NCBI RefSeq assembly: GCF_001044255.1
Contig: NZ_JYNX01000060.1
Span: 18,232 to 82,231 of the forward strand
Origin: Mycolicibacterium chubuense
Lineage (GTDB): Bacteria; Actinomycetota; Actinomycetes; Mycobacteriales; Mycobacteriaceae
Direction of reading: 5' to 3'
Length of the DNA stretch: 64,000 nucleotides
A program made the position numbers and the translations under genes. The number at the start of each line of letters is the position of its first letter. Within the stretch, counting starts at the first letter, position 1. The notes under the pieces were generated by a model, which saw only the letters and a program-made list of their open reading frames with translations, did not search any database and had not been told where the DNA came from. Shown in pieces: positions 16,960 through 21,353 of the stretch.

Positions 16960-17525
16960 CCGAGCATCAGGCGCGCCGCCTTCTCGAGTTTCTGCGCGAT
17001 CTCCTCGTACGTGGCGTACCCCATCCCGGCGCGCACGAGCGCGCCCGAGTACAGCATCTCCAGCGTGTCCACGACCGCCGGATCGGCGTCCGGACCCACG
17101 GCGGCCGACAGGCGCTCGCGGATGTCGCGGCCGATGCGCAGCCGCAGCACCTCGACATCCGGATCCTTGCCCAGCAGTGCGGTGGTCACCGCGCCGGCAA
17201 ACTCCGGCTCATCGGCGACCAGCAGTGAGATGTGGCCGAGCACTTCGATGACCCGGACCGCGGGGTCGCCGGATTGATGCTCGGCGCAGGGCGATCCGGC
17301 GAGACGACGCCAGAAGACCTCGGCGACCAGATGCTCCTTGGACGAAAAATAGGTGTACGCCGTCGCGGCGCCCACGCCGGCCTCGGCAGCCACCCGGCGC
17401 ACGGTCAGTCCCGCGAATCCCTCACGGCTGAGCACGTCGACGGCGGCGCGTCCCAGGCGGTCCACGGTGTCGGCCTGTTTGGCCGTCAGCCTCCGCCGCG
17501 TCGACTCCAAGGCCGGATCGGACAC
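16956..17525 (-). CDS. TetR family regulator of the glycosyltransferase locus
   Basis: A 189-residue protein with the TetR helix-turn-helix ([20 protein letters not shown], then [16 protein letters not shown]). The GTG start has TAGCGT eight bases upstream and no ribosome binding site, so the mRNA is probably leaderless. The palindrome CGGACACATGTCCG (17519-17532) covers the start codon, i.e. the transcription start. The same core palindrome lies at the promoter of the GT4 operon at 21.3 kb, so this protein probably represses both itself and that operon. Its ligand is unknown. Confidence 0.85.
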
Positions 17526-17532
17526 ATGTCCG
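17519..17532. promoter_or_regulatory. TetR operator, copy 1
   Basis: CGGACA-CA-TGTCCG, perfect six-base arms, overlapping the GTG of the TetR gene and lying just past its -10 hexamer (TAGCGT, minus strand, 17534-17539). The core GGACACATGTCC is the exact reverse complement of the core in copy 2. Confidence 0.7.
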
Positions 17533-17565
17533 GACGCTACTACAACCCGATGCCACCAGCAACGG

Positions 17566-17571
17566 TAAGTT
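17566..17571 (+). promoter_or_regulatory. -10 element for leaderless methyltransferase gene
   Basis: TAAGTT, seven bases before ATG 17579. No ribosome binding site lies between. Confidence 0.55.
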
Positions 17572-17578
17572 GGGGGCC

Positions 17579-18241
17579 ATGAACCTTCCGTCGACCGCCG
17601 CGGCCCTGTTCGAGCTCGCGGATCGCGTCACCGGCTTCATGCCCGCGGACGAGGGCCGCACCCTCTACGACACCGCGGTGCGCTACCTGGGCGACGGAGT
17701 CGCCGTCGAAATCGGTACCTACTGCGGCAAATCCACGGTCATGTTGGGCGCGGCCGCCCAGCAGACCGGCGGACTGCTGTTCACCGTCGATCATCACCAC
17801 GGCTCGGAGGAACACCAGCCCGGCTGGGAATACCACGACACATCGCTGGTCGATCCCGTCACCGGATTTTTCGACACGCTGCCCACCTTGCGTCACACGC
17901 TGGACGCCGCAGGCCTCGACGACCATGTGGTCGCGATCGTCGGCCGGTCGCCGGTCGTGGCGCGTGGGTGGCGAACACCGTTGCGGTTCTTGTTCATCGA
18001 CGGCGGCCACACCGAGGAGGCGGCCCAACGCGATTTCGCCGGTTGGGCCCCGTGGGTCGAGGTCGGCGGCGCACTGGTGATCCACGATGTGTTCCCCGAC
18101 CCGGCCGACGGCGGGCAGGCGCCGTTCCACATCTACCAGCGCGCGCTCGAATGCGGCGACTTCCGCGAGGTGCTGTCGACCGGTTCGATGCGGGTGCTCG
18201 AAAGGGTCAGCGGGCAGCCGGGAACGCTGGGCGCGTCTTAA
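17579..18241 (+). CDS. Class I SAM-dependent methyltransferase (Methyltransf_24 type)
   Basis: A 220-residue methyltransferase. [15 protein letters not shown] is the SAM-binding glycine motif, [14 protein letters not shown] the acidic loop and [18 protein letters not shown] the downstream motif of this O-methyltransferase-like group. Substrate unknown. It is divergent from the TetR gene and converges on the toroid-protein gene with a 4-base overlap. The TetR operator sits about 50 bases upstream of its own start, so control by that regulator is possible but less clear than for the GT4 operon. Confidence 0.82.
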
Positions 18242-19302: not shown

Positions 19303-20020
19303 CGGCCGCGGCGGGCTTCCTGAAGTAGAGCGCCACACTCTTGCCGATCAGCGGGTTGAGCGCCGACTCCGCGGTGCGGGTCAGCCATGGCCGGCTCATC
19401 ATGTCCCACACCAGCAGCTTGTGGTACGCCGTCACCGCTGGATGACCGTCCTTGTCGGTCCCGACCGCGCACTTGAGCCACCAGTACGGTGCATGCAGTG
19501 CGTGGGCATGATGGGTGTGGGTCAACGAAAGACCGTGCGCGAGCACTTTGTCGCGCAGTTCGTCAGCCCGGTAGATCCGGATGTGGCCGCCCTCGTTGGC
19601 GTGATACTCGTCCGACAGTGCCCAGCAGATCCTCTCCGGGAGCCAGCGCGGCACCGTGATCGCCAGCGCGCCACCCGGTTTGAGTACCCGCACCAGTTCG
19701 GCGATCGCGCGCTCGTCCTCGGGCACGTGCTCGAGGATCTCCGAAGCGATCACGCAGTCGAAAGTGGCGTCGGGGTAGGGCAGATCGAGCGCGTCGCCCT
19801 TGACCGCTTCGCCCTTCGCCGAAGACGGCGCCTCACCCTGCTCGGCCATCGCCTGCAGTATCGCGTCGACGTCGTTGAGATCCGCTGCGTTCTGGTCGAA
19901 TCCGACGACGTCGGCGCCGCGGCGGAACGCCTCGAAGGTGTGCCGGCCGGCTCCGCAGCCGACATCGATGACCTTCGTGCCCGCTCCCACACCGAGACGG
20001 TCGAAGTCCACGGTCAGCAT
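19295..20020 (-). CDS. SAM-dependent methyltransferase (type 11)
   Basis: A 241-residue methyltransferase: VIDVGCGAGRHTFEA (SAM motif I), DVVGFDQN (acidic end of beta 2), ASEILEHVPEDERAIAELVR and LKPGGALAITVP (motifs typical of type 11). ATG 20020 overlaps the stop of the glycosyltransferase gene, so it is translationally coupled to it. A C-terminal tail of about 70 residues follows the catalytic domain. With the GT4 enzyme upstream, methylation of a sugar or glycolipid is the simplest idea, but this is inference. Confidence 0.85.
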   Translation of the reverse strand: MLTVDFDRLGVGAGTKVIDVGCGAGRHTFEAFRRGADVVGFDQNAADLNDVDAILQAMAEQGEAPSSAKGEAVKGDALDLPYPDATFDCVIASEILEHVPEDERAIAELVRVLKPGGALAITVPRWLPERICWALSDEYHANEGGHIRIYRADELRDKVLAHGLSLTHTHHAHALHAPYWWLKCAVGTDKDGHPAVTAYHKLLVWDMMSRPWLTRTAESALNPLIGKSVALYFRKPAAADA

Positions 20021-21249
20021 GTGGCGACCCTCTTCCGAGCTCGTTCGTACACCGCAACCGTCTGTGCGGCAACAGATTCCCAGCTGAACACCTCGAGTGC
20101 GCGTCGCCGCCCGGCCTCCCCGAGCCTGCGCAGCTCCCGCGGTGAGTCGAGCAGCTCACCCAGCACGGCGGTGAGCTCGTCGACGTCGGCCGGGGTGACC
20201 AGCCGCGCACATTCGCCGTCGGCGCCCACCACCTCCGGCAGCGCGCCCGCCCGACTGGCCACGATCGGTGTTCCACTGGCCATGGCCTCGACCGCGGGCA
20301 ACGAGAATCCCTCGTAGAGCGAGGGAATGCAGGCGACATCGGCGGAGGCGAGGAGTTCGGCGAGTTCGGTGTCCGACAGTCCGCTGGAGCTGTGCACGAT
20401 GTCGGAGATCCCCAGTTCGGCGATGAGCTTCTCGGTCGGGCCGTTGGGTTCCAGCTTGGCGACGAGCTGGAGTTCGAGATCGCGCTCCACACGCAGACGT
20501 GCCACCGCGTGGAGGAGATGACTGACTCCCTTGAGGGGCACGTCGGCACTCGCGATCGCGATGATGCGATTGCGCACGCGGTGCTCGGACGGCCCGAACA
20601 GCTGGGTGTCCACCCCGAGCGGCACGACGTGGAGCTGGCTCGGGTCGACGGCGAAGTCCTCGGCGATGTCGGCGGCGGACGTGGACGACACGGTCACCAA
20701 CTCGGGGATCTGCCGGGCCACCTCCTTCTGCATCTCGGCGAACGCGTACCACCGGCGGACCAGGGGCTTGCGCCACCACGTCGCGGCGGCGACGTCGAGC
20801 ACCCGGTCACGGGTGATCGGGTGGTGCACCGTGGCGACCACCGGGAGGCCCGACGCGGCGATCGTCAGCAGCCCGGTGCCCAGGCACTGGTTGTCGTGGA
20901 CGACGTCGAAGTCGTCGCGCCTCTCGGCCAGCAGCCGCGCGACGCGCAGGCTGAACGTCTTGGGCTCGGGGAAGCCGGCAGTCCAGGTGGTCAACAGCTC
21001 CTGGAGATCGATCGTCGTCTTGATCTCGCTGGGCCGCGGGATCCGGAAGGGATCCGGCTCGCGGTAGAGATCGAGGCTGGGCACCTTCGTCAGCCGTACG
21101 CGGGGATCGAGACCGCCGGGATAGGGCTGGCCGGAGAAGACCTCGACGTCGTGGCCCAGTTCGACCAGGCCGCGGCTCAGGTGTCGGACGTAGACGCCCT
21201 GCCCTCCGCAGTGGGTCTTGCTCCGATAGGACAGCAAGGCGATACGCAT
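20014..21249 (-). CDS. GT4 family glycosyltransferase
   Basis: A 411-residue GT-B enzyme. N-terminal SKTHCGGQGVYVRHLSRGLV is the GT4 glycine-rich loop; PSLYEGFSLPAVEAMASGTP is the EX7E nucleotide-sugar motif of retaining GT4 enzymes. It should transfer a sugar from an activated donor to an acceptor at the inner face of the membrane; neither is known. AGGTGAGC precedes the ATG. First gene of the operon GT4, methyltransferase, toroid protein, under a strong sigma-A promoter (21325-21353) with a TetR operator at the start site. Confidence 0.9.
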   Translation of the reverse strand: MRIALLSYRSKTHCGGQGVYVRHLSRGLVELGHDVEVFSGQPYPGGLDPRVRLTKVPSLDLYREPDPFRIPRPSEIKTTIDLQELLTTWTAGFPEPKTFSLRVARLLAERRDDFDVVHDNQCLGTGLLTIAASGLPVVATVHHPITRDRVLDVAAATWWRKPLVRRWYAFAEMQKEVARQIPELVTVSSTSAADIAEDFAVDPSQLHVVPLGVDTQLFGPSEHRVRNRIIAIASADVPLKGVSHLLHAVARLRVERDLELQLVAKLEPNGPTEKLIAELGISDIVHSSSGLSDTELAELLASADVACIPSLYEGFSLPAVEAMASGTPIVASRAGALPEVVGADGECARLVTPADVDELTAVLGELLDSPRELRRLGEAGRRRALEVFSWESVAAQTVAVYERARKRVATC

Positions 21250-21308
21250 GGTCAGCTCACCTGTCCTGAGCTGGTCGAATCGAGTGACGCACGGAATCCG
21301 AACCCCTC

Positions 21309-21324
21309 CTGGACATGTGTCCAG
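21309..21324. promoter_or_regulatory. TetR operator, copy 2
   Basis: CTGGACA-TG-TGTCCAG, perfect seven-base arms. It starts directly after the -10 box of the GT4 operon, so a bound repressor would cover the transcription start. The core equals copy 1 at 17519-17532. Confidence 0.75.
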
Positions 21325-21353
21325 ACTATAGTTTGACGTGCTAGCTGATGCAA
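21325..21353 (-). promoter_or_regulatory. Sigma-A promoter of the GT4 operon
   Basis: Minus strand: TTGCAT (-35), 17-nt spacer, TATAGT (-10). This is the best sigma-A-type promoter in the window. The 5' leader to ATG 21249 would be about 70 nt. Confidence 0.75.

Follow-up and report, generated by a model that had tools for sequence, protein, structure and literature searches.

Two TetR paralogues may share an operator that links methylmannose polysaccharide synthesis to a lipid/aldehyde-oxidation regulon in Mycolicibacterium chubuense

We have examined a 64,000-nt stretch of Mycolicibacterium chubuense DNA (contig NZ_JYNX01000060.1, positions 18,232-82,231 of the forward strand; referred to here as the window), in which two copies of a palindrome lie at the promoters of a TetR-family regulator gene and of an operon for the synthesis of 3-O-methylmannose polysaccharide (MMP). 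The anatomy and distribution of these sites point to a reading that we regard as probable, namely that two TetR paralogues, the regulator encoded in the window (named here MMP-TetR) and the orthologue of Mycobacterium tuberculosis Rv0767c, share a single operator, GGACANNTGTCC, and would thereby couple MMP synthesis to a lipid/aldehyde-oxidation regulon.

Two palindromes at two promoters

An initial annotation of this DNA had described two palindromes, each beside a -10 box and one of them overlapping the GTG with which the TetR gene begins, and on rechecking of the coordinates both were found where it had put them. For comparison, we used 118 genomes of the genus, including that of the window (5.95 Mb), and 80 named MMP-TetR loci, which are among the matches listed for the window TetR protein and come to 1,016,352 bases altogether; L001-L003, which repeat the window or the paralogue locus described below, were excluded from the locus tallies. 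The operators and their putative promoter elements are as follows.

17519..17532 (core 17520-17531), no strand: operator 1, CGGACACATGTCCG, within which the TetR gene has its GTG start; at most one mismatch in 79 of the 80 named loci
17534..17539, minus strand: -10 box of the TetR gene, TAGCGT, separated from the core by 2 nt
17557..17562, minus strand: putative -35 box TTGCTG of the TetR gene, 17-nt spacer; TTGCTG or TTGCCG in many relatives
17566..17571, plus strand: probable -10 box TAAGTT of the divergent MeT1 gene, 7 nt before the MeT1 ATG
21309..21324 (core 21311-21322), no strand: operator 2, CTGGACATGTGTCCAG, covering the position at which the manT transcript is expected to begin
21325..21330, minus strand: -10 box of the manT operon, TATAGT, directly before operator 2; conserved in relatives
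21348..21353, minus strand: putative -35 box TTGCAT of the manT operon, 17-nt spacer; TTGCGT, TTGCAT or TTGCGG in most relatives

Read on the coding strand, the TetR promoter has the order TTGCTG, 17 nt, TAGCGT, CC, GGACAT, GTG start, TCC, with the GTG (17525-17523) inside the core of operator 1, and the manT promoter has the order TTGCAT, 17 nt, TATAGT, CT, GGACACATGTCC, AG. The 2 cores are reverse complements of each other, as had been claimed, and lie 3,791 bp apart, in agreement with the 3.8 kb first given. The reverse complement of the MeT1 TAAGTT sequence (AACTTA or AACCTA) is present in many, not all, of the relatives compared.

Conservation of the sites was found to be strict. In the 80 named loci, the site at the TetR start was perfect in 56, had one mismatch in 23 and 2 mismatches in 1. 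The start of ManT falls inside 63 of these loci, with a perfect ManT site in 61 and a single mismatch in 2 (in the other 17 this start is outside the locus, and the site was not judged). All 117 perfect GGACANNTGTCC sites in these loci belong to these 2 promoters, and because perfect copies sit solely at 2 fixed promoters we regard the sites as other than chance occurrences. The distance from a -10 hexamer (TANNNT) to the start-codon operator was 2 nt in 80/80 MMP-TetR sites (80 of 81, the site in L048, with 2 mismatches, having dropped out) and 0 nt in 41/41 sites of Rv0767c orthologues; in shuffled controls such a hexamer appeared at any gap from 0 to 4 in 5%. A gap of 0 would place the RTG (ATG or GTG) start at the expected +1 position, that is, on a leaderless message, which has been reported as a common type in mycobacteria (PMC4633059).

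Genes at the two operators

The genes in question are the following.

16956..17525, minus strand: TetR-family regulator gene (MMP-TetR), 189 aa, GTG start; PF00440 TetR_N, 50.1 bits, cut-off 24
17579..18241, plus strand: MeT1, MMP 1-O-methyltransferase; PF13578, and PDB 6g7d (E 7.7e-123), which we take to be MeT1
18238..19302, minus strand: MmpH, MMP endomannosidase; PDB 7qsj (MMP hydrolase, MmpH), E 1.7e-204
19295..20020, minus strand: pMeT3, putative MMP 3-O-methyltransferase; PF08241 (Methyltransf_11) and its position within the four-gene cluster of PMC9883506
20014..21249, minus strand: ManT; PDB 7qsg, E 1.5e-239

The TetR_N score bears out the family to which the regulator had been assigned. 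By these protein matches, the 'GT4 operon' of the initial annotation is the ManT-pMeT3-MmpH part of the published MMP cluster, with MeT1 divergent from the TetR gene. A four-gene cluster of MeT1, MmpH, pMeT3 and ManT has been described for MMP, in which 7QSG is ManT and 7QSJ is MmpH (PMC9883506); the depositor name of 7qsg is D-inositol 3-phosphate glycosyltransferase. All four members stand together in the window, pMeT3 being recognized by its domain and place only, and a search for a close solved structure of pMeT3 found none.

A paralogue with the same recognition helix

A third strict site in this genome (L001:1501) covers the GTG of a further TetR gene, whose product is 46% identical to MMP-TetR and whose surroundings are a SnoaL protein, alcohol dehydrogenase, P450, short-chain dehydrogenase/reductase (SDR), P450, the TetR gene, aldehyde dehydrogenase, SDR and, further on, purD (SDR and purD by eye). 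The order in this locus (L001/L089), CYP51-SDR-CYP123-TetR-ald ... purD, is one that we take to be that of M. tuberculosis Rv0760c-Rv0772 (some of the gene numbers being those of a table in PMC10470581), and from it we infer that the paralogue is the Rv0767c orthologue. The window TetR, at 46% identity, is a paralogue of the regulator of the Rv0767c regulon and not that regulator itself. A relaxed site is also present on the aldehyde dehydrogenase side of the locus. In 40 Rv0767c loci of other genomes (L185-L224, hand-picked from longer listings), the start-codon site was perfect in 39 and had one mismatch in 1, and the second site was perfect in 38, had one mismatch in 1 and was absent from 1.

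We observed that the recognition-helix residues A54-T55-A56-Y57-T58-Y59-F60, together with S62-K63, are identical in 81/81 MMP-TetR and 41/41 Rv0767c orthologues; S61 is present in 78 of the 81 MMP-TetR proteins and differs in 3. A third TetR paralogue of the genome (on C17, 36% identity) was rejected as a sharer of the operator, having other residues in the recognition helix and no site within one mismatch in its 10-kb surroundings. The TetR-like genes T4 and T5, whose helices also differ, were likewise not adopted as sharers; with a site at the start codon, they are likely targets.

Distribution of the two regulators

ManT is present in 91 of the 118 genomes. Among the matches listed, MMP-TetR was found in 64 genomes, all of them among these 91, and never in the 27 genomes without ManT (Fisher p 6e-12; G109, where the TetR gene is split across 2 contigs, was scored as present). 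That MMP-TetR is never seen without ManT (64/64) suits a simpler arrangement, in which MMP-TetR alone would bind both operators and the Rv0767c protein would be inactive on manT, and so does a sequence variant at the ManT site: AGACA replaces GGACA, with A at operator position 1, in 16 of the 64 genomes with MMP-TetR (L164, L166-L169, L171-L177 and L179-L182) and in 0 of the 27 that have ManT and lack this regulator (p 0.002, clade-bound). Confinement of AGACA to MMP-TetR genomes hints at slightly different preferences of the 2 proteins. Yet the ManT operator is perfect in 27/27 genomes with ManT and without MMP-TetR (in the 64 with it, 48 are perfect and 16 have one mismatch, or 47 perfect of 63 when the window is left out), and against the same arrangement stand the identity of the recognition-helix residues and the presence of the same operator over the Rv0767c start codon. 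We consider this the strongest of the alternatives, although an unlikely one. Among the matches listed, the Rv0767c orthologue is present in 26 of those 27 genomes, where this paralogue alone could serve the manT operator.

The converse arrangement, in which the operator belongs to the Rv0767c protein alone and MMP-TetR is merely a target that binds elsewhere, appears to us very unlikely. It would agree with the published assignment to an Rv0767c orthologue of what is probably the same palindrome (motif X; PMC6593523), and with the target-like character of T4 and T5, which carry the site at their start codons and have a different helix. However, MMP-TetR has the same helix residues, genome G002 lacks Rv0767c and keeps MMP-TetR together with its sites, that at ManT being perfect, and in other genera the MMP-TetR type stands over its own operator.

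Counts of the motif across genomes also favour operator sharing. In 7 genomes with neither regulator, of which 4 are 72-92% complete, GGACACRTGTCC gave 0, 2, 1, 0, 0, 0 and 0 strand matches, whereas the remaining 111 genomes averaged 2.9.

Points against operator sharing

Several observations weigh against the sharing of one operator by the 2 paralogues, or against parts of the evidence for it. A scan of the stretch with consensus promoters reported zero promoters, so that the -35 and -10 boxes given above rest on conservation. On the ManT tree the absence of MMP-TetR takes only 2 changes, 26 of the 27 genomes being a single clade, and these genomes are therefore not independent cases. In the 26-locus clade the operator arms are 100% conserved, as compared to 53% at -60 to -31 and 86% at -30 to -1, but the right flank (+13 to +42) is also conserved, at 88%; the corresponding values for the 64 loci with MMP-TetR are 97.5% for the arms and 51%, 83% and 54% for the 3 flanking segments (L100, from G025, was excluded from this profile). 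In G025 itself, a metagenome-assembled genome that is 80% complete, the ManT operator is present and both regulators are missing, and 6 of the 111 regulator-bearing genomes have zero GGACACRTGTCC matches. In L053, L057, L065, L073, L077 and L078, the MMP-TetR orthologue occurs without ManT (the MMP genes) in the locus; L057 and L065 have, by eye, a divergent isochorismatase/nicotinamidase-like open reading frame (ORF) beside the TetR gene. Equality of the recognition helix, moreover, would not be proof of equal specificity.

A local regulator other than MMP-TetR also has to be considered. Of the 27 manT regions without MMP-TetR, 3 (L100, L107 and L117) are shortened by contig ends, and 6 were found with a profile to contain TetR-like ORFs (E 1e-8 to 3e-4). 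Three of the ORFs (in L101, L113 and L119) lie about 0.3 kb upstream of manT on the manT strand and could encode a local regulator of manT, and because of these 3 loci our confidence in operator sharing is slightly reduced; the other 3 are at least 4.8 kb downstream. With only 6 of 27 regions concerned, we rejected the idea that another TetR gene generally stands beside the MMP cluster where MMP-TetR is missing.

Finally, the ManT site was found within one mismatch in 0 of 5 loci outside the genus (L278 was not judged). Loss of the palindrome where the genes are kept had been named beforehand as an outcome that would speak against the operators: none was seen within the genus, all 91 ManT genes having the site with at most one mismatch, but outside it the ManT site is missing.

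Palindromes as something other than operators

We also considered that the palindromes might be promoter or leader elements (a start region, an RNA hairpin or a leader ORF) and not protein operators, since they overlap start regions and a possible leader ORF begins in the manT site.

21257..21316, minus strand: possible 19-codon leader ORF, with its ATG inside operator 2 and its end 7 nt before manT

The start codon at this position was ATG in 83 and GTG in 8 of 91 manT leaders, and 82 of the 91 have an ORF with an ATG start that terminates ahead of manT or no more than 4 nt from its start. Such an ORF may be a coupled leader on a leaderless message. However, no conservation of the leader peptide was found across the 91 leaders, no advantage in folding over shuffled sequences was seen for the manT RNA leader in the window (z -0.58), for which reason a hairpin was rejected, and the same palindrome is present at TetR, aldehyde dehydrogenase and further genes whose leaders otherwise differ. 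We hold this explanation to be a little less probable still than an operator of Rv0767c alone.

Rarity of the motif in this genome cannot serve as proof of an operator, and we rejected it as such. Many unrelated copies, named in the initial annotation as a sign against the operators, were not seen: the strict motif GGACAYRTGTCC occurs in only 3 places, but its reversed pattern, used as a control for the motif counts, occurs in 2, and the relaxed motif GGACANNTGTCC occurs in 8 places, with 5 for its control. The control being nearly as frequent, these counts alone prove nothing. That the palindromes are there by chance, for which the 3 places against 2 could be quoted, is nevertheless a negligible prospect in view of their strict conservation at 2 places, the lack of any other perfect site in the 80 named loci and the 328 strand matches to GGACACRTGTCC in the 118 genomes, as compared to 49 for the control.

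Proposed mechanism

In our proposal, a small clade of TetR repressors recognizes GGACANNTGTCC as its operator. MMP-TetR would bind at its own promoter and start codon and at the manT-pmeT3-mmpH promoter, cover the transcription start and block initiation at both, and when bound it may also disturb expression of the divergent meT1. The Rv0767c orthologue, with the same recognition helix, would read the same operator, so that MMP synthesis would be wired into the CYP51-CYP123-aldehyde dehydrogenase regulon. Since a bound dimer would cover the transcription start, repression is the likely sign of control; activation is possible. The ligand is expected to be a lipid-derived molecule (an acyl-CoA, sterol or aldehyde). 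In this scheme promoters, binding, repression and cross-regulation are predictions, drawn from the sites and their conservation, the identities of the genes, the shared helix and co-occurrence. The initial annotation had proposed a single switch, worked by one TetR protein, that blocks both promoters. Its switch is still the best reading of the promoter anatomy, but its single regulator does not stand, given a 46% identical paralogue with the same helix and the operator over its own GTG, and a ManT operator that stays perfect where MMP-TetR is missing.

We put forward a broader proposal only tentatively. MMP synthesis may belong to a lipid/sterol/aldehyde-oxidation regulon under 2 interchangeable TetR paralogues, the ancestral regulator of a joined MMP-aldehyde dehydrogenase-CYP51 super-locus having duplicated and its daughters still sharing the operator after the loci parted; the RTG would lie in the operator centre (GGACAY-RTG-TCC), so that one 12-bp element at about -6 to +6 could make switches of leaderless promoters.

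Relatives outside the genus are of interest for this history. In Rhodococcus (L079 and L083), the TetR gene before CYP123-SDR-CYP51, which is the place of Rv0767c, encodes a protein closer to MMP-TetR than to Rv0767c (71% vs 47% for L079). In the best 20 outside-genus matches listed (L255-L274), CYP123/CYP51 follow the TetR gene in 12, MeT1 is divergent from it in 6 and both are found in 3, and the own-start site is present within one mismatch in 17. Among 20 larger outside-genus regions (L275-L294, hand-picked from longer listings), 6 have all four MMP genes, 11 have CYP51 or CYP123, and 5 have at least one MMP gene together with CYP51/CYP123. Two of these regions, L293 and L277, are super-loci in which MMP genes, aldehyde dehydrogenase/SDR, TetR and CYP51 lie within about 14 kb; L293 has MMP genes, aldehyde dehydrogenase, TetR, CYP123, SDR and CYP51 in a single stretch. 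Regulator, CYP51 locus and MMP genes are thus linked in other genera, where the ManT site is missing, and it seems that ManT acquired its operator within the genus; the order of these events is an inference.

Further sites and neighbouring genes

In L037 (position 6495), the TetR gene begins with ATG in place of GTG and its operator reads GGACATATGTCC, codon and palindrome having changed together. In the genome of the window, L091 (647-658, contig C15) has a relaxed site, GGACACCTGTCC, directly after TAGGGT; downstream of it lie, by eye, a small ORF and one resembling an SDR, and this may be a fifth target. We also inspected 20 hand-picked regions from 13 genomes with extra sites (L225-L244), in 8 of which the site was unrelated-looking or unclear. 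In 12 of the 20, the same palindrome contains the RTG-TCC start of another gene (L225 1974, L226 2056, L227 2133, L228 1998, L230 2074, L231 2046, L234 2029, L235 2048, L236 2212, L239 2074, L241 2022 and L244 2040); the genes include those for TetR-like proteins, a thiolase-like protein, a molybdopterin oxidoreductase, an amidohydrolase and an SDR, and a TANNNT hexamer abuts the palindrome in 10 of the 12. Just past the 3' end of the window TetR gene, a PknH-like extracellular domain protein is encoded (15854-16711, plus strand); no link of this gene to the operators was seen.

Significance

It has been proposed that fatty acyl-CoA is held by 2 cytoplasmic polymethylated sugars, one of which is MMP (PMC9883506), and an MMP-negative M. 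smegmatis mutant shows slower growth at 15 C. We found nothing in print on the control of MMP level, a question that the operator and 2 candidate repressors make testable. In the main text of PMC9883506, the terms regulator, operon, promoter, transcription, TetR and repressor are all absent; term look-up likewise gave neither TetR nor repressor in PMC2674218, PMC4555173 and PMC2581804, and no link of MMP to a regulator was found in the open-licence texts examined. The connection to CYP51, CYP123 and aldehyde dehydrogenase provides candidate ligand metabolites and a lead on the purpose of those enzymes.

Two published responses bear on the ligand question. In Mycobacterium sp. VKM Ac-1817D, motif X was assigned to the TetR protein G155_05115, the Rv0767c orthologue, and to the phytosterol response; it is present in 14 operons, which include 2 further TetR genes, and 12 of the 14 operons rose more than threefold with phytosterol (PMC6593523). 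In M. tuberculosis treated with para-hydroxybenzaldehyde, Rv0762c-Rv0771, a set to which Rv0767c and aldA belong, dropped jointly to 0.14-0.25, and the authors name another putative regulator, Rv0576 (PMC10470581).

Comparison with known systems

The regulator of motif X resembles those described here in being a TetR protein, the Rv0767c orthologue, whose own start codon has a palindrome close by; it differs in that the published assignment is to one regulator and that the terms glycosyltransferase and methyltransferase are absent from the main text of PMC6593523. Probably our palindrome is motif X, as judged from regulator, locus and position and not from the letters. The palindrome fits the report that Rv0767c binding sites are rich in GAC and GTC (PMC10312376); a computed Rv0767c motif (E 1.2e-14) fell below its authors' own cut (PMC4482099). 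The MMP cluster of PMC9883506 has the same four genes as ours, with ManT and MmpH matching solved structures.

Of the TetR repressors of mycobacterial sterol catabolism, KstR and KstR2, the former (NF033703) is the best NCBIfam match to MMP-TetR but a weak one, at 36.6 bits, below the cut-off of 280. KstR and KstR2 have palindromic operators and lipid-linked targets in common with the present system. LmrA and QdoR of Bacillus subtilis are 2 TetR paralogues that share operators, as MMP-TetR and the Rv0767c protein would do, but they are other members of the family with flavonoid ligands and other targets. A TetR protein that controls its own gene and a second target is nothing unusual, and LmrA/QdoR are a precedent for TetR pairs that share operators. 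The motif (probably) and the MMP cluster have both been published; as far as our searches show, what is new here is the link between them, the operator shared by 2 paralogues and the history of the locus.

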